64,000 nt of DNA from Prevotella sp. (GTDB lineage: Bacteria; Bacteroidota; Bacteroidia; Bacteroidales; Bacteroidaceae): contig JAFPVC010000029.1 in NCBI GenBank assembly GCA_017413085.1, positions 1-64,000 of the forward strand. Direction: 5' to 3'. Each line of letters opens with the position of its first letter. The stretch's first letter is position 1. Both the position numbers and the translations under genes were made by a program. Under the pieces are notes generated by a model. The model was not told where the DNA came from. It searched no databases and worked only from the letters and a program-made list of their open reading frames with translations. Below are positions 6,642 to 57,123 of this stretch, one piece after another.

Positions 6642-8159
6642 ATGGAAAGCAAGAAAGTAAGGGTGCGTTTCGCCCCCAGTCCAACCGGTGCACTGCATAT
6701 TGGCGGTGTGCGCACAGCATTGTTTAACTATCTTTTTGCCCGTCAGCATGGCGGTGACTTGATATTTCGCATAGAGGATACCGACTCAAACCGTTTCGTG
6801 CCAGGTGCGGAGGAATACATAATAGAGTCATTCCGCTGGCTCGGAATTAAATTTGACGAGGGAGTGAGCTTCGGCGGCGATAAAGGTCCTTACCGCCAGA
6901 GCGAGCGCAGGGAGATATACAAGCAGTATGTGAAACAGCTGATTGATGCAGGCAAGGCATATATAGCCTTTGATACGCCGGAGGAACTTGAGGCAAAGAG
7001 AAATGAGACTCCTAATTTCCAGTATGATGCACGCACCCGTGGGGAAATGCGTAATTCACTATCTCTGTCGAAGACAGAAGTGGATGAACTGCTGGCCGAT
7101 GGCAAGCAGTATGTGGTGCGCTTTAAGATTGACGCAGGCGAGGAGGTCGTGGTGAACGACCTGATACGCGGTGAAGTAAGGATAAAGACAGACATACTTG
7201 ACGACAAGGTGCTGTATAAGAGTGCAGACGAACTGCCAACATACCACCTTGCCAATATAGTAGACGACCATTTGATGGAGGTCAGTCATGTAATACGCGG
7301 CGAGGAGTGGTTGCCGAGTGCACCACTGCATGTGCTGCTGTATCGTGCATTCGGCTGGGAGGACACTATGCCGCAGTTTGCCCATCTGCCACTGCTGCTG
7401 AAGCCGGAAGGCAAGGGAAAACTCTCGAAGCGCGACGGCGACAGGCTTGGATTCCCCGTTTTCCCGCTAGAGTGGCATGACCCGAAAACCGGCGAGGTGA
7501 GTGCGGGCTTCAGAGAGAGTGGATATTTCCCGGAGGCAGTAGTGAACTTCCTTGCACTGCTTGGATGGAATCCTGGAACAGAGCAGGAGATGTTCTCGCT
7601 TGATGAACTTGTGAAATCATTCGATATATCACGCTGTTCAAAGGCAGGAGCAAAGTTTGATTATAAGAAATGTATATGGTTCAACCATGAATACATCTTG
7701 CGCAAGACACCTGCCGAGATAGCAGCGGTGTTTGCCCCTATCGTTGCAAACAATGGAGCAGAGGTTTCTTTTGAGCAAGTGACCAAGGTGGTTGAGATGA
7801 TGAAGGACAGGGTGAATTTCGTAAGCGAACTGTGGCCCTTGTGTTCGTTCTTCTTCTTTGCTCCGCAAACGTATGATGAAAAAACGGTGAAGAAACGCTG
7901 GAAAGAAAATTCAGCACAGGTTATGACAGAACTGGCCGCAGTGCTTGAAGGAATATCCGATTTCTCTATTGAAGGTCAGGAACCTGTAGTAATGAAGTGG
8001 ATAGAAGACAAAGGATATAAACTCGGCGATGTGATGAACGCGTTCCGCCTGTGTCTCGTAGGCGAGGGCAAAGGTCCGGGCATGTTCGACATATCATCAT
8101 ACCTTGGAAAGGAAGAGACGGTAAAGCGTATAAATAAGGCTGTAGCAACGTTGGGATAA
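6642..8159 (+). CDS. gltX: Glutamate--tRNA ligase
   Basis: A 505-residue class I aminoacyl-tRNA synthetase that charges tRNA-Glu with glutamate. The HIGH-type motif reads [13 protein letters not shown] at residues 11-23 and the KMSKS-type motif KLSKRDGD lies near residue 260. An IEDTD segment follows the HIGH motif as in all GluRS, and the ATP-site RGEEWLPS is near residue 220. Length is normal for the family. First gene of a plus-strand run: its TAA stop overlaps the next ATG by one base. A short paralogue, gluQ, is at 24401-25336. Confidence 0.97.
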
Positions 8160-15708: not shown

Positions 15709-16443
15709 TCAGAACCACAGCGGGCCGTTGCCGTGTCCGATGCTTAGATTCTTGCCTCCTTCAATACCTCGGTTTATTATCTCTTTCGCTTCTCCTACAG
15801 CCTCGGGAAGTGATTTACCACGTGCCAGGCCAACGGCTATGGCGGTAGACATAGTGCATCCTGTGCCATGCAGGTTCGTTGAGTCAATCTTGTTTGACGA
15901 ATAAGTGTGTACGGTTCCGTCAGGCATCATAAGTCGGTCAGTCATTACGTTGCTGTTGTTGTGCCCCCCCTTTATGAGCATTGCCGTTGTCAGTTTGCTG
16001 CATCCGTCTGCATTCAGTCGTTTCGCTTCGGGCAGGTTGGGGGTGATTACGGTGCATAACGGAAAGAGACTGCTTCTCAGATAGTCAATGCAGTCTTCGC
16101 TCATCAGCCTTGTACCACTTGTAGAAATCATTACTGGGTCACACACGATGGGGCATACCGCATTGCTGAGAGCATTAACGATGATTTTGGCACATTCTAT
16201 GTTTGGTATCATGCCTATTTTCACCGCTTTTATGTCGAGGTCACTGAAAACGGCTTGTAGCTGTGCCCTCACCACTTCAGATGGAACGGTCATTACCTCG
16301 TTAACCCCCATGGTGTTTTGTGCCGTAATGGCGGTTATCACCGTGGCGCAGTATGCACCCATGCAGGTGGCCGTCTTCAGATCTTGCTGTATGCCGGCTC
16401 CTGCACTGCTGTCGCTGCCTGCTATCGTAAGTATTATCTCCAT
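15709..16443 (-). CDS. thiD: Hydroxymethylpyrimidine/phosphomethylpyrimidine kinase
   Basis: A 244-residue ribokinase-fold enzyme that phosphorylates HMP and HMP-P in thiamin synthesis. The N-terminal TIAGSDSSAGAGIQQDLKT, the conserved VCDPVMISTSGTRL near residue 100, MLIKGGH near residue 157 and the anion-hole/catalytic HGTGCTMSTAIA near residue 194 are all intact. It overlaps thiE by 10 bp. It is useful as the in-window reference for the degenerate copy fused to an AraC domain at 53991. Confidence 0.94.
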   Translation of the reverse strand: MEIILTIAGSDSSAGAGIQQDLKTATCMGAYCATVITAITAQNTMGVNEVMTVPSEVVRAQLQAVFSDLDIKAVKIGMIPNIECAKIIVNALSNAVCPIVCDPVMISTSGTRLMSEDCIDYLRSSLFPLCTVITPNLPEAKRLNADGCSKLTTAMLIKGGHNNSNVMTDRLMMPDGTVHTYSSNKIDSTNLHGTGCTMSTAIAVGLARGKSLPEAVGEAKEIINRGIEGGKNLSIGHGNGPLWF

Positions 16444-50903: not shown

Positions 50904-50935
50904 TTTGGCGCATTTGGAAAAAAAACTTAACTTTG
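50904..50935 (+). promoter_or_regulatory. Promoter of the toxin-antitoxin operon
   Basis: TTTG at 50904-50907 and TAACTTTG at 50928-50935, 20 bp apart. The box lies inside an in-frame upstream extension of the antitoxin, which fixes the real start at 50966. Confidence 0.7.
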
Positions 50936-50965
50936 TACTCAGGAAATATCCAAACTGAATATTAT

Positions 50966-51223
50966 ATGAACGCACTTCAACTTAATGCCGAACTATATCG
51001 CACACTGGGACAGATAGCAGAAAATGAGACTCTGCTTGAAAAGACCCTGAAATACGTCAAGAAACTCGCAGCTAAGAAACCCGATCCAACGCTGATGAGC
51101 AAGGATGAGTTTTATTCACGTATAGATAAAGCGGCAAAACAATATGAATGCGGTGAGTACACCGTACTGATGCCAGGTGAAACAGTTACCGACATGCTAA
51201 CAAGATGTGGATATGATGTATGA
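50966..51223 (+). CDS. Antitoxin of a YoeB-type module
   Basis: An 85-residue soluble protein beginning MNALQLNAELYRTLGQIAEN. It is helical with a basic middle (KYVKKLAAKKPDPTLMSKDEFYSRIDKAA) and an acidic C-terminal tail. It lacks the classical Phd/YefM N-terminus, but its position, size and overlap with the toxin gene fit an antitoxin. The antitoxin should neutralise the toxin and, with it, repress the promoter at 50904-50935. An in-frame ATG at 50933 is rejected because it lies within the -7 box. Confidence 0.75.
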   Translation: MNALQLNAELYRTLGQIAENETLLEKTLKYVKKLAAKKPDPTLMSKDEFYSRIDKAAKQYECGEYTVLMPGETVTDMLTRCGYDV

Positions 51224-51488
51224 AATTAGATTTACCACAGAAGCAAATGAAGGTCTCTTGAAACTGGCTAAAAGTGAATTGGGTGCCTATAAGAAAGCAT
51301 TGAAATTCATTGACGAATTACAAAAACACCCAACTACTGGTACAGGTCATCCTGAACGTTTAAAAGGGTTCGTACAGGAGCGTTGGAGTCGTAGGATTTC
51401 AAGTAAACATCGTATGGTATATGAGATTTACGAAAAAGAAATAGTCGTATTAATTCTCACTGCCTACGGACATTATAACGACAAATAA
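51207..51488 (+). CDS. YoeB/Txe family mRNA-cleaving toxin
   Basis: A 93-residue RelE-superfamily toxin. LKFIDELQKHPTTGTGHPERLKG near residue 30, the central WSRRISSKHRMVYEI near residue 62 and the terminal AYGHYNDK with its His-Tyr pair match YoeB, including the basic and His residues needed for ribosome-dependent mRNA cleavage. It overlaps the antitoxin by 17 bp; alternative ATGs at 51213 and 51216 (MYEIRFTTEA) would also fit. Translational coupling to the antitoxin is expected. Confidence 0.88.
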   Translation: MDMMYEIRFTTEANEGLLKLAKSELGAYKKALKFIDELQKHPTTGTGHPERLKGFVQERWSRRISSKHRMVYEIYEKEIVVLILTAYGHYNDK

Positions 51489-51753: not shown

Positions 51754-52587
51754 ATGAACTTTCTCCTTTTCGTATTAGGCAGCAACAGCATTCTGCACAT
51801 GCAAGCTCATTATGCTCTCAGAACCCTTTATGTTCATTCTACGCATGATGACAAGTTTTTCATACTAACAGATTCGCCCATTCTCTACGAAAATCTACCT
51901 TTTGTTGAAGTTATTGCAATAACGGCAAAAGACATAATAGAATGGAAAGGAGAATATGATTATTTCTTCCGCATAAAAATTAATGCTATCAGAAAATTTG
52001 TACACGCACATTCTGATAAACATTTGATTTACGTTGATTGTGACACATATTGCATCCGAGATTTTTCTTCTTTCAAGTTATTATTAGACAAAGGACATGG
52101 TATCATGCATAAAGATGAAGGTAGCATAGAGCACATGAAGGGTGATTCACAGACAATGTGGAAACAAACTCATGGGAAGAAATTTGCTGGCATCACCATA
52201 ACTTCTGATTATCATATGTGGAACAGCGGTGTGCTTGGTATACCTAAAGAGCATGTTATTTCCGTAATGGATAAAGCATTGGAGATATGCGACGCTTTTC
52301 TAACATCAGGTGTTACATGTTTCAATATGGAGCAATGGGCTATCTCTATCGCCTTAGCCCATTATTGTTCTCATGGGATTAAGGAAGGAAATAAAATCAT
52401 TGGACATTATTGGCATCATAAATATGTGTGGAGCAGGTATATTGCCCTATTTTTTGCTGACACATATTCACATGGCCGAACATTGGAATCTGACCTCCAT
52501 ATCATCAAACACACAAACTTCCATTGGCTGGCAAGGAGATTGGCAACACAAAGAATTCTGATGAAAATATTTTGCACGTCATATTAA
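51754..52587 (+). CDS. Glycosyltransferase with DxD motif
   Basis: A 277-residue soluble protein of the nucleotide-sugar transferase fold. LIYVDCDTYCIRDF near residue 90 carries the metal-binding DxD, and MWNSGVLGIP near residue 154 is the NSGV motif seen in GT8-like and related transferases. His-rich segments (GHYWHHKYVW, near residue 213) may complete the metal site. DNA is AT-rich relative to neighbours, suggesting acquisition. No sugar-nucleotide or export genes are adjacent, so the acceptor is unknown. Confidence 0.75.
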   Translation: MNFLLFVLGSNSILHMQAHYALRTLYVHSTHDDKFFILTDSPILYENLPFVEVIAITAKDIIEWKGEYDYFFRIKINAIRKFVHAHSDKHLIYVDCDTYCIRDFSSFKLLLDKGHGIMHKDEGSIEHMKGDSQTMWKQTHGKKFAGITITSDYHMWNSGVLGIPKEHVISVMDKALEICDAFLTSGVTCFNMEQWAISIALAHYCSHGIKEGNKIIGHYWHHKYVWSRYIALFFADTYSHGRTLESDLHIIKHTNFHWLARRLATQRILMKIFCTSY

Positions 52588-52836: not shown

Positions 52837-53964
52837 ATGAAACAGGCTAATCCATTTGTTATAGAGGGGTATGTCTCTCCTGAATATTTCTGCGACCGTG
52901 AGGAGGAAACAGCGCTACTGACGCGACATCTTACTAACGGCTGCAATGTAGCATTGATAGCTCCAAGAAGGATAGGCAAGTCTGGACTGATACACAACTG
53001 TTTTCATCAGGAACAACTGTCGGCAAGCCACTATCTGTTTTATGTAGATATATATGAGACAAAGAACCTCAACGAATTCGTGTATGAATTAGGCAAATGT
53101 GTACTGAACACGCTGAAACCCTTGGGCCGTAAAGTGTGGGAAGGCTTTCTCTCTATCCTCCAGTCGCTGAAGGGTGCCGTGACGTTCGACATAAACGGCA
53201 ACCCGGAATGGAGCCTGAGCATTGGGGAAATGGTGCAGCCTGACACTATGCTTGACGAGATATTCCTGTATCTTGAGAAGGCAGACCGTCCATGCATCGT
53301 TGCAATAGACGAGTTTCAAGTCATTGCAACATATCCTGAGAAGACAGTGGAGGCTGCACTTCGCAAACGCATACAAAACTGTCACAACGTACGTTTCGTA
53401 TATTCTGGAAGCAAGCGCCACATGATGGCCGAGATGTTTGCTTCAACCTCGCGTCCATTCTATAATAGTTGTTCAATTATGGGACTGGATGTTATTCCAT
53501 ACGACAAATACTTTGCTTTCGCCCAAGGGAAGATGCAAGCGAAATCCCTTGCCATCCCTGATGAAGCATTCCGTATAATCTACGATTCATACGATGGGAT
53601 GACATGGTACATACAGTATGTTCTCAATATCCTTTACACGATGAAAGATGATGCCGGAATCATATCTGCCAGTGATGTGGAGACGGCTGTTCAGACCATC
53701 ATGTCGCAACACAGCTTTGCCTACAAGGCTTTGCTATTTCAACTTCCATCGAAACAGAAGCAGGTTCTTACGGTCATAGCATGCGAGGGTAAGGCCAACA
53801 ATGTCATGTCTAAGGATTTTCTGCGTCGTCATGCGCTCACCGCAAGTTCTGTGCAAGCAGCCCTGAGAGTCTTGCTCGACAAGGATTTCATTACCTTTGA
53901 CGATGGCTTCTACAAGTTGAGCGATGCTTTTTTCTCTCAATGGATTAGTACACACGACAGGTGA
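52837..53964 (+). CDS. ATP-binding protein of the archaeal-ATPase/STAND-like type
   Basis: A 375-residue P-loop ATPase. Walker A: VALIAPRRIGKSGLIHN near residue 38; Walker B: CIVAIDEFQVIATYP near residue 151; sensor-like RFVYSGSKRHMM near residue 187. The C-terminal 100 residues contain a winged-helix-like region (QKQVLTVIACEGKANNVMS...SVQAALRVLLDKDFI). Many Bacteroidetes encode such proteins singly or in variable islands; some relatives act in stress or defence, but the role is unknown. It lies 26 bp before the kinase-AraC fusion and could be cotranscribed with it. Confidence 0.82.
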   Translation: MKQANPFVIEGYVSPEYFCDREEETALLTRHLTNGCNVALIAPRRIGKSGLIHNCFHQEQLSASHYLFYVDIYETKNLNEFVYELGKCVLNTLKPLGRKVWEGFLSILQSLKGAVTFDINGNPEWSLSIGEMVQPDTMLDEIFLYLEKADRPCIVAIDEFQVIATYPEKTVEAALRKRIQNCHNVRFVYSGSKRHMMAEMFASTSRPFYNSCSIMGLDVIPYDKYFAFAQGKMQAKSLAIPDEAFRIIYDSYDGMTWYIQYVLNILYTMKDDAGIISASDVETAVQTIMSQHSFAYKALLFQLPSKQKQVLTVIACEGKANNVMSKDFLRRHALTASSVQAALRVLLDKDFITFDDGFYKLSDAFFSQWISTHDR

Positions 53965-53990: not shown

Positions 53991-55112
53991 ATGTTGGGCA
54001 AACCATCCATATTAAGCATTACTGGCTCTGACCCTAAGGGCGGGGCTGGCGTGCAGGCTGACATAAAGACCATCACGGCGATGGGGGCTGATGCCTATGC
54101 CGTGGTGACGGCGGTGACGGCGCAGGATGCTGAAGGTATTTCGTCAATTTATGATCTGCCTGAGCACATGGTGATGGGGCAGGTGAGGGCTGCCATCAAG
54201 GAGATGAGGGCGCAGTCTGCCGTGAATGAAACAGTGCAGAAAGCCGTCAAGGTGGGAATGGTGCGCGATGCTGATACCATCGTTTCATTGAGTAAGGAGA
54301 TAGTAGCAATGCGCAACATCGTGTCGGCACCAGGAATAGTGTCGTCAGGCGGTAGCAGACTGTTGCCTGATGAAGCCGTGATGATGTGGGAGCGTTATGT
54401 GTTGCCTATGACGAAGGTGCTGGTAGTGCGGTGTGACGAGGTGGAGGTGTTGCTCAAGATGCGCATATCCACCAACGAGGATATGGAGCGTGCGGCACAG
54501 ATGCTTGCTGGTAAAGGGGCGGAATCGGTGTTGATACGCGGCGGAAACCATGTGGAGGGTATGCTCACGGCATTGCTCTATGACAAGGGGAGGGCAAGAT
54601 TCTTCACGTCGCACAACATGGAAGGATGGAAGCGGCACGGCATCGGTGGGGCAATGTCGACTGCGATAGCCGTTAGGCTGGCCATGGGAGACGACGTTGT
54701 GAAGGCTGTAGACAAGGCGCATGAGTATATGCACAGTCAGGTGGTGTATGCCATGACTCCCTCACATACATTGGTGGCAGAAACGGCATACAGGCCAGTC
54801 GACCTTTATAATCAGTTTCTGTCGCTTGTGGCCGACAACTACCGCGCGGCGCACGATGTGGCTTTCTATGCGGACAGGATGGCTATCACGGCGCGCTATT
54901 TATATAATGTGACGGACAGAATGGTGGGCAAGTCGCCCAAGACGGTCCTTGCGGAATACATACTGCATGAGGCGAAGAAACTGCTTGAGACGTCGCGTCT
55001 GTCGGTGCAGGAAATATCTGACGAACTGGGCTTTTCGTCGCAGGTGATATTCTGCAGGTTCTTCAACAACTATGCCGGATGTACACCGAGCAGTTATAGG
55101 TTGAAGAATTGA
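53991..55112 (+). CDS. ThiD/PdxK-like domain fused to an AraC DNA-binding domain
   Basis: A 373-residue two-domain protein. Residues 1-265 follow the HMP/pyridoxal kinase fold: ILSITGSDPKGGAGVQADIKT at the N-terminus, VSSGGSRLLPDEAV near residue 115, VLIRGGNH near residue 181. Where active ThiD has DPVM and HGTGCTMS (see the copy at 15709), this protein has APGIV and HGIGGAMS, so the catalytic Cys and neighbours are gone. Residues 270-373 are a full AraC double helix-turn-helix (FYADRMAITARYLYNVTDR, SVQEISDELGFSSQVIFCRFF, YAGCTPSSYR). Probable regulator sensing a B6 or thiamin compound. It converges with pdxT-pdxS on the other strand. Confidence 0.85.
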   Translation: MLGKPSILSITGSDPKGGAGVQADIKTITAMGADAYAVVTAVTAQDAEGISSIYDLPEHMVMGQVRAAIKEMRAQSAVNETVQKAVKVGMVRDADTIVSLSKEIVAMRNIVSAPGIVSSGGSRLLPDEAVMMWERYVLPMTKVLVVRCDEVEVLLKMRISTNEDMERAAQMLAGKGAESVLIRGGNHVEGMLTALLYDKGRARFFTSHNMEGWKRHGIGGAMSTAIAVRLAMGDDVVKAVDKAHEYMHSQVVYAMTPSHTLVAETAYRPVDLYNQFLSLVADNYRAAHDVAFYADRMAITARYLYNVTDRMVGKSPKTVLAEYILHEAKKLLETSRLSVQEISDELGFSSQVIFCRFFNNYAGCTPSSYRLKN

Positions 55113-55171
55113 AGGATTGAAGGATTGAAGAATTGAAGGATTGAAGGATTGAAGAATTGAAGAATTGAAGA
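55101..55171. repeat. 8-bp tandem repeat ATTGAAGR
   Basis: Eight copies of ATTGAAGG/ATTGAAGA. The first unit contains the stop codon of the kinase-AraC fusion, so the last three codons (Leu-Lys-Asn) derive from the repeat. Inverted orientation relative to the TTCAAYYY array at 23974. Confidence 0.8.
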
Positions 55172-55181
55172 GTAGAAGTTG

Positions 55182-55266
55182 GAAGAAGATAGAAGACGTA
55201 TGTGTTAGACTGATGACACACAAGCGTAATGTCCTTTATCTCCCTCTATCTTCCTCTATCTTCTTC
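55182..55266 (+). terminator. Long inverted repeat after the kinase-AraC gene
   Basis: GAAGAAGATAG (55182-55192) and CTATCTTCTTC (55256-55266) are exact complements; a TGTGT/ACACA pair lies inside. Possible terminator for the plus-strand gene. Confidence 0.4.
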
Positions 55267-55278
55267 ACTATTGCAATG

Positions 55279-55317
55279 AAAATACTTCCTTAGCTGGCGA
55301 GGCTAAGGAAGTATTTG
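55279..55317 (-). terminator. Terminator overlapping the pdxT stop codon
   Basis: AAATACTTCCTTAGC and GCTAAGGAAGTATTT pair perfectly. The upstream arm on the minus strand encodes the last residues of PdxT and the stop codon lies in the loop region, so coding and termination signals overlap. Confidence 0.75.
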
Positions 55318-55865
55318 TGTATTCTGAGGTCGTCATTCAGTTCAGGATGGAAGGCAGTAACGAGTTGCTTGCCCTGCTGTGCTGCTATGATGTGGCCGTC
55401 GTGCTCTGCAAGAATCTTTACACCGTTGCCCACGTCCTCAATGTATGGGGCACGAATGAATGTCATGGGCAGTGGCTCGCCGCCGTCGTTGACGCCCTGC
55501 AGGCGGCCTTCGGTGTAGAAACTGCCCAGCTGGCGACCGTAGGCATTGCGTCGCACGGTGATGTTCATCGTGCCGAGGTGCTTGCCGTCAAGCATTATCA
55601 GTCCGGCGCAGGTTCCAAACACCGGCAGATCGTCAAGTATGGCCTGACGTATGGGTTCAAACAGGTTCTCGTCTTTTATTATCCTCGTCATGGCAGTGCT
55701 CTCGCCGCCTGGTATTATCAGAGCGGCACCTTTGCGGCTGACGAAATCGTTCCAGTCGCCCAGGTTGCGTATCAGCATACTGTCAACGCCAATGCGGCTC
55801 AGCATCTGCTGGTGTTCGGCAAAAGCACCCTGCAAGGCAAGAACTGCAAATAACTTTTTGTTCAT
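55290..55865 (-). CDS. pdxT: Pyridoxal 5'-phosphate synthase glutaminase subunit
   Basis: A 191-residue class I glutamine amidotransferase that supplies ammonia to PdxS. LALQGAFAEHQQML at the N-terminus, LIIPGGESTAMTRII near residue 50, the nucleophile Cys in VFGTCAGLIMLDG near residue 84 and FHPELNDD with the catalytic His/Glu near residue 172. It starts 13 bp after the pdxS stop. The 3' end overlaps a terminator stem. Confidence 0.95.
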   Translation of the reverse strand: MNKKLFAVLALQGAFAEHQQMLSRIGVDSMLIRNLGDWNDFVSRKGAALIIPGGESTAMTRIIKDENLFEPIRQAILDDLPVFGTCAGLIMLDGKHLGTMNITVRRNAYGRQLGSFYTEGRLQGVNDGGEPLPMTFIRAPYIEDVGNGVKILAEHDGHIIAAQQGKQLVTAFHPELNDDLRIHKYFLSLAS

Positions 55866-55878
55866 GTCAATCAGCTGT

Positions 55879-56754
55879 TTATTTTCCGCGCTCAGCCATG
55901 AGCAGTTCTATCTCGCTTTCGTTGATTCCGACCATTGCTTCGCCGAGGTCTTCGCTCAGTTCTGCTATAATCTTCGGGTCGTTATAGTTCGTCACAGCCT
56001 TTACTATGGCCTGTGCGCGCTTCACGGGATCGCCGCTTTTGAAAATGCCGCTGCCCACGAACACACCCTCGGCGCCAAGCTGCATCATAAGTGCTGCATC
56101 GGCAGGTGTTGCCACACCTCCGGCGGCAAAGTTGACAACCGGCAGTTTGCCGTTTTCGTGTACGTAGCGCACCAGTTCGTAAGGCACGCGAAGCTGTTTT
56201 GCAGCCTCATACAGTTCGTCCTCGCTCATGGATGTGAGCCGGCGTATTTCGCTTTGCATCATGCGCATGTGGCGCACGGCCTGAATGACGTCGCCGGTGC
56301 CAGGCTCACCCTTCGTGCGTATCATCGTGGCCCCCTCGTTGATGCGGCGCAGAGCCTCGCCAAGGTCTTTCGCTCCGCATACGAAAGGCACGTTAAACTG
56401 CCTCTTGTCAATATGATACACATCATCGGCAGGCGACAGTACTTCGCTCTCGTCAATATAGTCAATTTCGATAGCCTCCAGTATCTGGGCCTCTACGAAA
56501 TGACCTATGCGGCACTTTGCCATCACTGGTATGCTTACGGCCTGCTGTATTCCCTTAATCATCTTCGGATCGCTCATGCGGCTCACGCCACCGGCGGCAC
56601 GTATGTCGGCCGGTATCCTTTCGAGTGCCATTACTGCGCAGGCTCCAGCAGCCTCGGCTATCTTTGCCTGTTCAGGGGTTGTTACATCCATAATTACGCC
56701 GCCCTTCAGCATCTGTGCAAGGTTGCGGTTAAGTTGTGCTCTGTCTTCTTTCAT
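55879..56754 (-). CDS. pdxS: Pyridoxal 5'-phosphate synthase lyase subunit
   Basis: A 291-residue TIM-barrel enzyme that makes PLP from ribose-5-phosphate, glyceraldehyde-3-phosphate and ammonia. [27 protein letters not shown] near residue 12, [18 protein letters not shown] near residue 75, the lysines around [20 protein letters not shown] near residue 113, and [30 protein letters not shown] near residue 205. An upstream in-frame extension is rejected: it would begin before the promoter box and read through the hexanucleotide repeat as Thr-Lys repeats. The real start ([11 protein letters not shown]) sits directly on that repeat. Confidence 0.95.
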
Positions 56755-56783
56755 TTTCGTTTTCGTTTTCGTTTTCGTGTTCG
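56754..56783 (-). repeat. Hexanucleotide microsatellite at the pdxS start codon
   Basis: Five CGAAAA-type units (one CGAACA) in the transcribed leader of pdxS; the unit nearest the gene shares a base with the ATG. A related array precedes holA. Confidence 0.85.
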
Positions 56784-56802
56784 TTTTTTTGCTTACGGGG
56801 TG

Positions 56803-56834
56803 CAAAATTAGGCATCTTAACAGATACATGCAAA
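56803..56834 (-). promoter_or_regulatory. Promoter of pdxS-pdxT
   Basis: Minus-strand TAATTTTG (56810-56803) and TTTG (56834-56831), 20 bp apart, so the microsatellite falls in the 5' leader. Confidence 0.7.
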
Positions 56835-57123
56835 CGATTGTTCTGTTTAGGTAAAAAACTATACCGAAAAAAGAAAAAGTAGTACTTTGTTGTATTTTTT
56901 TTGTGAAAAGTTTCTGCTTTTTTGTGGTTTGCCAATGCTTTTCTGCGTAGTGACATAATGTTACTTTTTTTATGGATATTCTGACAAAGTGATTTTTCGT
57001 ACTGTTGAAATACTCGCTTATTTCAGTAAATTATTCCAGCTTGTTTCGTACAGCGTAATTTTGGCGTTTTTGCTAAAGTGCTATAAAACAGCATGTTTGT
57101 TTTTTGAAGAAAATCAAGGCTTC

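Follow-up and report, generated by a model that had tools for sequence, protein, structure and literature searches.

The window analyzed in this study is a stretch of 64,000 nucleotides from a Prevotella sp. (NCBI GenBank assembly GCA_017413085.1, contig JAFPVC010000029.1, positions 1 to 64,000 of the forward strand). It contains a gene for a protein in which a kinase-like domain of the ThiD type is fused to an AraC-type DNA-binding domain and, beyond it on the other strand, the genes pdxT and pdxS for the subunits of pyridoxal 5'-phosphate (PLP) synthase (Table 1). An earlier reading of this locus, made from the sequence only, had assigned the N-terminal part of the fusion protein to the hydroxymethylpyrimidine (HMP)/pyridoxal kinase type and its C-terminal part to a complete AraC double helix-turn-helix. 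Both assignments were borne out by Pfam. The N-terminal part matched Phos_pyr_kin (PF08543) over residues 14–258 with an E-value of 5.8e-51. The C-terminal tandem helix-turn-helix is complete and scored above the Pfam threshold, as HTH_18 matched residues 293–370 with an E-value of 3e-18 (66.3 bits against a cut-off of 33.6), covering positions 1–78 of the 80 in the profile, and HTH_AraC matched residues 332–370. Among the matches listed, no PDB entry spanned both halves of the fusion.

Table 1. Positions of the fusion gene, its domains and motifs, and the adjacent pdxST genes and promoter elements in the window.
Feature	Position	Strand	Basis
Predicted pseudokinase-AraC fusion regulator, 373 aa	53991..55112	+	Open reading frame, Pfam and NCBIfam matches, relatives in other genomes
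ThiD-like (ribokinase-fold) putative sensor domain, residues 14-258	54030..54764	+	Pfam PF08543
Retained pocket motif GSDPKGGAGVQAD, residues 12-24	54024..54062	+	Residue conservation
Degenerate anion-hole motif HGIGGAMS, residues 216-223	54636..54659	+	HGTGCTMS in ThiD of the window
AraC-type double helix-turn-helix, residues 293-370	54867..55100	+	Pfam HTH_18
pdxT, PLP synthase glutaminase subunit (presumed target)	55290..55865	-	TIGR03800, 203.9 bits
pdxS, PLP synthase lyase subunit (presumed target)	55879..56754	-	TIGR00343, 508.9 bits
-7 element TAATTTTG	56803..56810	-	Consensus TAnnTTTG; TTTG 33 nt after the GAAC core
-33 element TTTG, overlapping the 3' end of the motif	56831..56834	-	Sequence; -33 consensus presumed
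Predicted operator before pdxS, ATAGTTTTTTACCTAAACAGAACAATCGTTTGCA	56829..56862	-	Motif score 15.6

The kinase half of the fusion is nearer to ThiD than to PdxK or PdxY, with scores of 169 bits for the NCBIfam family TIGR00097 (HMP-P_kinase), 20 for pyridox_kin and 26 for PdxY. Its TIGR00097 score of 169.4 was, however, under the cut-off of 204.95, as were the scores of two relatives (184.5 for L036 and 152.7 for L050), while ThiD of the window itself, encoded at 15709–16443 on the minus strand, scored 250.4. When 53 distinct fusions were compared with 78 ThiD-like proteins, the fusions fell on one side of a single branch (SH-aLRT 99.3) of a tree that was built from 138 columns of the kinase half by a quick method without bootstrap. 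The 53 fusions were what was left of 90, which included loci retrieved twice, after members at least 80% alike had been dropped; the ThiD-like proteins were 77 from loci matched mainly over the kinase half plus ThiD of the window.

The residues needed for catalysis were lost throughout this group. With residue numbers and roles (D23, Q/E44, K77, G79, and Cys213) that we take to follow Salmonella ThiD, the catalytic Cys213 of HGTGC was found in none of the 53 fusions but in all 78 ThiD-like proteins, and the same was true for the Asn of the NxxE motif and the Lys of the KGGH motif. The segment between NLPE and HGTGC, which belongs to the ATP lobe, comprised 41 residues or fewer in 35 fusions, whereas it ranged from 53 to 71 residues in all 78 ThiD-like proteins. 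The fusion of the window is one of 18 with a full-length segment (66 residues), and it also keeps the GG of KGGH. The replacements of HGTGCTMS by HGIGGAMS and of DPVM by APGI, which had been read from the window, were confirmed there; the latter, however, is not general, as the D was retained in 30 of the 53 fusions. The positions of the pocket, in contrast, were retained: D23, T39, and G79 in all 53 fusions and T42, Q44, and K77 in 52 each, with M (30), L (22), or W (1) at the position of M80. The D of QAD was also found in all 53, and G12, D14, G20, Q22, A23, and D24 were invariant in an alignment of 28 sequences. Loss of the residues for catalysis together with retention of the pocket is what one would expect if selection acted on binding of a ligand and not on phosphotransfer.

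The fusion gene was closely linked to pdxS. A fusion was called at E-values of at most 1.4e-94 over nearly the full profile; the next matches started at 3.0e-70 and covered the kinase half only. In 251 genomes of the window's family, fusions were identified in 38, and in one more (G322) the fusion was split between frames, which gave 39. PdxS was found in 46 of the 251 genomes, among them all 39 with the fusion, and none of the 205 genomes without PdxS possessed a fusion (Fisher 6e-39, a value that overstates independence, as the genomes are related). The seven PdxS genomes without the fusion belonged to the genera g53 (5) and g65 (2). Moreover, all 40 fusion copies shared a contig with a pdxS, at a distance of at most 5.8 kb. 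Thirty-five of them were upstream of pdxS on the same strand, three were convergent, and two were divergent. The convergent arrangement with pdxT and pdxS that had been described for the window is real, as TIGR03800 and TIGR00343 identified both genes, but uncommon.

A search of 100 related genomes yielded, among the matches listed, full-length relatives as well as relatives matched in two pieces with a shortened middle, and 29 places were chosen by eye for retrieval of the surrounding stretches. Both pdxS and pdxT were present in 25 of these. Of the remaining four, L034 is a contig of 4.8 kb, and the stretch of L044 stops 0.2 kb past the fusion gene. L059 holds the second fusion copy of genome G077, in which the first copy adjoins pdxST, and L035 is located elsewhere in its genome; PdxS was found somewhere in each of these four genomes and in a Palleniella genome (G895). 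The two fusions of G077 (L033 and L059) are from different subgroups, and one alone is beside pdxST. In a public scan, in which 80 of 589 confirmed loci were listed, at least 24 (L097–L120) matched the fusion at nearly full length. Their record titles named Bacteroidales in 23 cases and Marinilabiliaceae, which are also Bacteroidia, in one. Carriers of the fusion include Prevotella multiformis DSM 16608, Prevotella denticola NCTC13067, Xylanibacter ruminicola D31d, and Palleniella muris. Among 295 genomes drawn from the order, 5 outside the window's family had a fusion, and a draw of 296 genomes of the phylum contained a fusion in the window's own genome only. The fusion has so far been seen in Bacteroidia only, and the survey that the sequence-only reading had called for showed that the fusion of the window is no isolated case. 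The recurrence of the domain pair and its neighborhood in dozens of genomes is beyond chance. The genomes of four loci of the public scan with a fusion gave no match to PdxS (L107, L109, L111, and L113; Bacteroidales, two of them titled Paludibacteraceae). In L113 an APH-type kinase gene (6973–7839) is directly behind the fusion; its product matched GntI with 93.7 bits and thiamine kinase with 67 bits (cut-off 299), both far below the cut-offs.

A common motif was visible by eye in the regions upstream of the fusion genes. Expectation maximization on 52 such regions, with the window left out, reached a log-likelihood of 660 in 40 starts, as compared with 140–154 in 12 starts on each of five mononucleotide-shuffled sets. 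A second model was made from 89 regions, which were those upstream of the fusion and those upstream of pdxS unless pdxS was simply downstream in the operon. Its consensus was gtTTTnTTTgTCAAaAtgGGAACannaTTTTg, and the motif is also given as TTTGTCAnnAnnGGAACnnnATTTTG. In the count with this model, from which two duplicates (L177 of the window and L180 of L033) and two loci with pdxS directly behind the fusion (L202 and L194) were left out, a left-one-out score of at least 9 was found before pdxS or the fusion in 57 of the 60 locus groups with a pdxS; these groups are not independent, as L178 and L179 are close to each other, L187 and L188 likewise, and 13 separately retrieved pdxS loci were unfiltered against the rest. 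In six further groups without pdxS in the retrieved stretch, a site preceded the fusion in three. For 3160 shuffled regions, the 99th percentile of the score was 7.8, the 99.9th percentile 11.9, and the maximum 16.0. Of the 64 sites, 55 had a T...TTTG box at a distance of 31–34 nt from the GGAAC core.

In most of the loci with pdxS far from the fusion gene, which are the most informative ones, the motif was found at pdxS. It was there in the convergent window and when the two genes were 1.75 kb (L043), 2.4 kb (the convergent L187 and L188), or 4.5–5.8 kb (L185 and L186) apart, and also when the fusion was on another contig (L178, L179, and L181). In the divergent loci L033 and L092 the site precedes the fusion, in the gap shared by both genes. 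None of the 7 pdxS genes from the two genera without an observed fusion had the motif; their best score was 8.6, and none showed the spacing. Among other gene starts in the retrieved loci, 6 of 275 scored at least 9, and two of these had the spacing. The better one (17.8) is at the pyridoxamine kinase gene of Palleniella muris (L116), and the second, at position 8600 of L119, was dismissed as it is situated downstream of pdxT and resembles a terminator. Examination of 22 pdxK loci, of which L224 had only 81 upstream bases and several had guessed start codons, revealed motif and spacing only in that of P. muris, and pdxK was rejected as a general target. In the Palleniella-type loci L034 and L116, the fusion is also beside a gene for a fucose-permease-like transporter of the major facilitator superfamily, near a pyridoxamine kinase gene. 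A pattern scan of nine genomes gave 15 matches with up to three mismatches, against 17 for the backwards control, whose mismatch numbers were unlisted. All seven matches with up to two mismatches were before fusion genes that either head a pdxST operon or sit close upstream of pdxST; one match with three mismatches (in G043) was also before a fusion gene, and the upstream region in G191 was missed by the pattern. Overall the pattern was no commoner than its control, so the nine-genome scan gave no evidence for a wider regulon.

In the window, the operator predicted before pdxS had the highest score on either strand of the 64 kb, under a model that included this site as one of many; the next, 13.3 at 52202, is without a -7 box. 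The sequence-only reading had placed the pdxS promoter at 56803–56834, which fits the TTTG at 56834–56831 and TAATTTTG at 56810–56803 on the minus strand. The TTTG is what we take to be the -33 element. The consensus of the -7 element, TAnnTTTG, is that given in PMC5682007.

Other features of the neighborhood are as follows. An AAA ATPase gene (AAA_14/ATPase_2 in Pfam; 52837–53964) lies on the same strand as the fusion gene and ends 26 bp ahead of it, and the two are possibly co-transcribed. A tandem array of 8.9 copies of the 8-base unit TTGAAGAA lies between the end of the fusion gene and pdxT (55101–55171), and 6.5 copies of TTTCGT (56749–56787) are at the start and in the leader of pdxS, between promoter and coding sequence. 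Two small overlapping open reading frames at 50933–51488 resemble, by eye, a toxin-antitoxin pair of the YoeB/RelE type. An Rfam scan of the window for riboswitches returned one tRNA only and no thiamin pyrophosphate riboswitch.

We propose that the fusion protein is probably a one-component regulator that activates pdxST, responds to a B6 vitamer, and is active in its apo form. Its N-terminal half would descend from a ThiD/pyridoxal-kinase domain, with catalysis lost and the vitamer pocket kept, and its AraC double helix-turn-helix would bind the conserved site that lies directly upstream of the -33 element of pdxST and overlaps it. When the vitamer, PLP or pyridoxal, is scarce, pdxST would be activated, and binding of the vitamer would turn activation off. 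End-product control of this kind would be the simplest circuit for a protein with a vitamer pocket that acts on pdxST. The binding of the fusion to the motif, a B6 vitamer as its ligand, and the sign of regulation are what we infer. The lost residues, the kept pocket, the promoter motif, and the fact that, in the family, the fusion almost always occurs together with pdxST and close to it are consistent with the suggestion that a dead vitamin kinase serves as the sensor in a regulator of PLP synthesis. Activation is suggested by the geometry of the site. Among AraC-family proteins, those with a site that has a fixed position and reaches as far as the -35/-33 box mostly act as class II activators, and the motif ends at the -33 TTTG with a mostly fixed spacing to the -7 element, which points to class II activator geometry.

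The predicted regulator resembles several known systems. Similar to the MocR-family PdxR, as portrayed in PMC5320631, it would control pdxST as a one-component regulator whose sensor stems from the fold of an enzyme that binds B6; there, apo-PdxR activates pdxST with PLP as anti-activator, the same logic in an unrelated protein, and MocR regulators combine a GntR-type winged helix with an aminotransferase fold. Different from PdxR, the fusion has neither domain, as Pfam matched no GntR winged helix and no aminotransferase-like domain in it. MocR regulators are about 450–500 residues long, and no GntR frame of such length (E-value at most 1e-6) was found in 20 genomes, of which 13 carry the fusion; the longest was 348 residues. 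Thus, the fusion may fill the place of PdxR. A table of PMC5320631 lists MocR-type regulators for 11 of 38 Bacteroidetes genomes, so that such regulators are not absent from the whole phylum. Our literature search, mostly without subscription journals and without databases such as RegPrecise, found neither an AraC-ThiD regulator of pdxST nor any such pdxST regulator for Prevotella-type bacteria, and a prior description is possible.

The fusion shares fold and pocket residues with ThiD (TIGR00097, PF08543) but differs from it in lacking the catalytic and ATP-lobe residues, in being fused to AraC, and in its score under the TIGR00097 cut-off. Similar to AraC/XylS regulators, it possesses a complete C-terminal double helix-turn-helix and has a candidate site that abuts a promoter. 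The usual sensor domains of those regulators are cupin-like or others, whereas that of the fusion would be a ThiD-type pseudokinase. In the archaeal regulators RbkR (riboflavin) and ThiR (related to thiamine-phosphate synthase), a vitamin enzyme domain and a DNA-binding domain control the genes of their own vitamin. The fusion would be built on the same plan, judging from adjacency and motif, although RbkR and ThiR have other enzyme folds, another DNA-binding domain, and other vitamins and occur in Archaea.

Several observations weigh against the proposed role. Seven of the 46 PdxS genomes do without the fusion, which is thus dispensable for pdxST. Four genomes outside the family (G891–G894, those of L107, L109, L111, and L113, reached via named loci and of unstated completeness) carry the fusion without a match to PdxS, and PdxJ was found in two of them (G891 and G893). 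No motif was detected in 3 of the 60 groups, namely L052, L053, whose detached pdxS at 0.9 kb has no site, and L182, the detached pdxS of G016. The pdxK gene of the window's genome lacks the motif, which occurred with spacing in 1 of the 22 pdxK loci. The site of the window is among the weaker ones; its left-one-out score of 13.3 is between the 99.9th percentile and the maximum of the shuffled regions and equals that of the second-best place at 52202. The region upstream of the window's own fusion gene has no motif (-10.3). Finally, L111 and L113, without a PdxS match, carry the motif before the fusion gene, and part of the role of the fusion may thus be autoregulation.

Among the alternatives, repression of pdxST with the vitamer as co-repressor would also be permitted by the overlap of the motif with the -33 element. 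We consider it unlikely, as the position at the -35/-33 box is typical of class II activators and a spacing of 31–34 nt is expected of an activator that touches the polymerase but is not required of a repressor.

The fused domain might instead sense HMP or HMP phosphate (HMP-P), so that thiamin status would set B6 synthesis. The sequence-only reading had named PLP synthesis, or alternatively thiamin synthesis, as the regulated pathway. The closeness of the domain to ThiD rather than PdxK/PdxY, the conserved pocket residues, which are those of ThiD, and the APH-type kinase gene of L113 with its weak thiamine kinase match fit such a sensor. However, the usual neighbors and motif targets are pdxST and once pdxK (few neighborhoods were typed for other genes), and PMC5320631 describes B6 vitamers as substrates of ThiD-family kinases as well. 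The evidence favors B6 over thiamin as the pathway, and sensing of HMP or HMP-P is distinctly unlikely. We give only slight credence to an enzyme-to-sensor family in transition, with members from the full-length dead kinase of the window to proteins with little more than the vitamer-binding half, with a ThiD-type pocket that reads HMP or HMP-P, and with the thiamin pathway setting B6 synthesis.

It is very improbable that the linkage reflects only a travelling gene cassette, with the fusion regulating something else or itself alone. PdxS of the window is 93% identical to that of G077 from another family, which makes transfer of a cassette plausible, and the four genomes with a fusion and no detected PdxS, of which two have the motif before the fusion, would fit as well. 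However, the motif is at pdxS even where the fusion gene is elsewhere (L043, L178, L179, L181, and L185–L188), and all seven best matches of the nine-genome scan are before fusion genes that head or are near pdxST. Finally, residual slow catalysis by the kinase half, in a bifunctional protein such as RbkR or NadR, is hardly credible, as the full-length segment in the window and in 17 of the other 52 fusions and the GG kept in the window stand against the loss of the catalytic Cys, the Asn of NxxE, and the Lys of KGGH in all 53 and the shortened segment in 35.

If the fusion is indeed an activator of pdxST, it would explain how B6 synthesis is controlled in many Prevotella-type bacteria, and the AraC family would gain a new sensor fold, the ThiD pseudokinase. 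The predicted operator is directly testable. The family would also provide graded natural intermediates from enzyme to sensor. To judge from sequence comparison, the fusion would be a further variant among the vitamin regulators derived from enzymes, and in some gut and oral bacteria a worn-out vitamin enzyme seems to have become the sensor on a DNA-binding switch beside the B6 genes.

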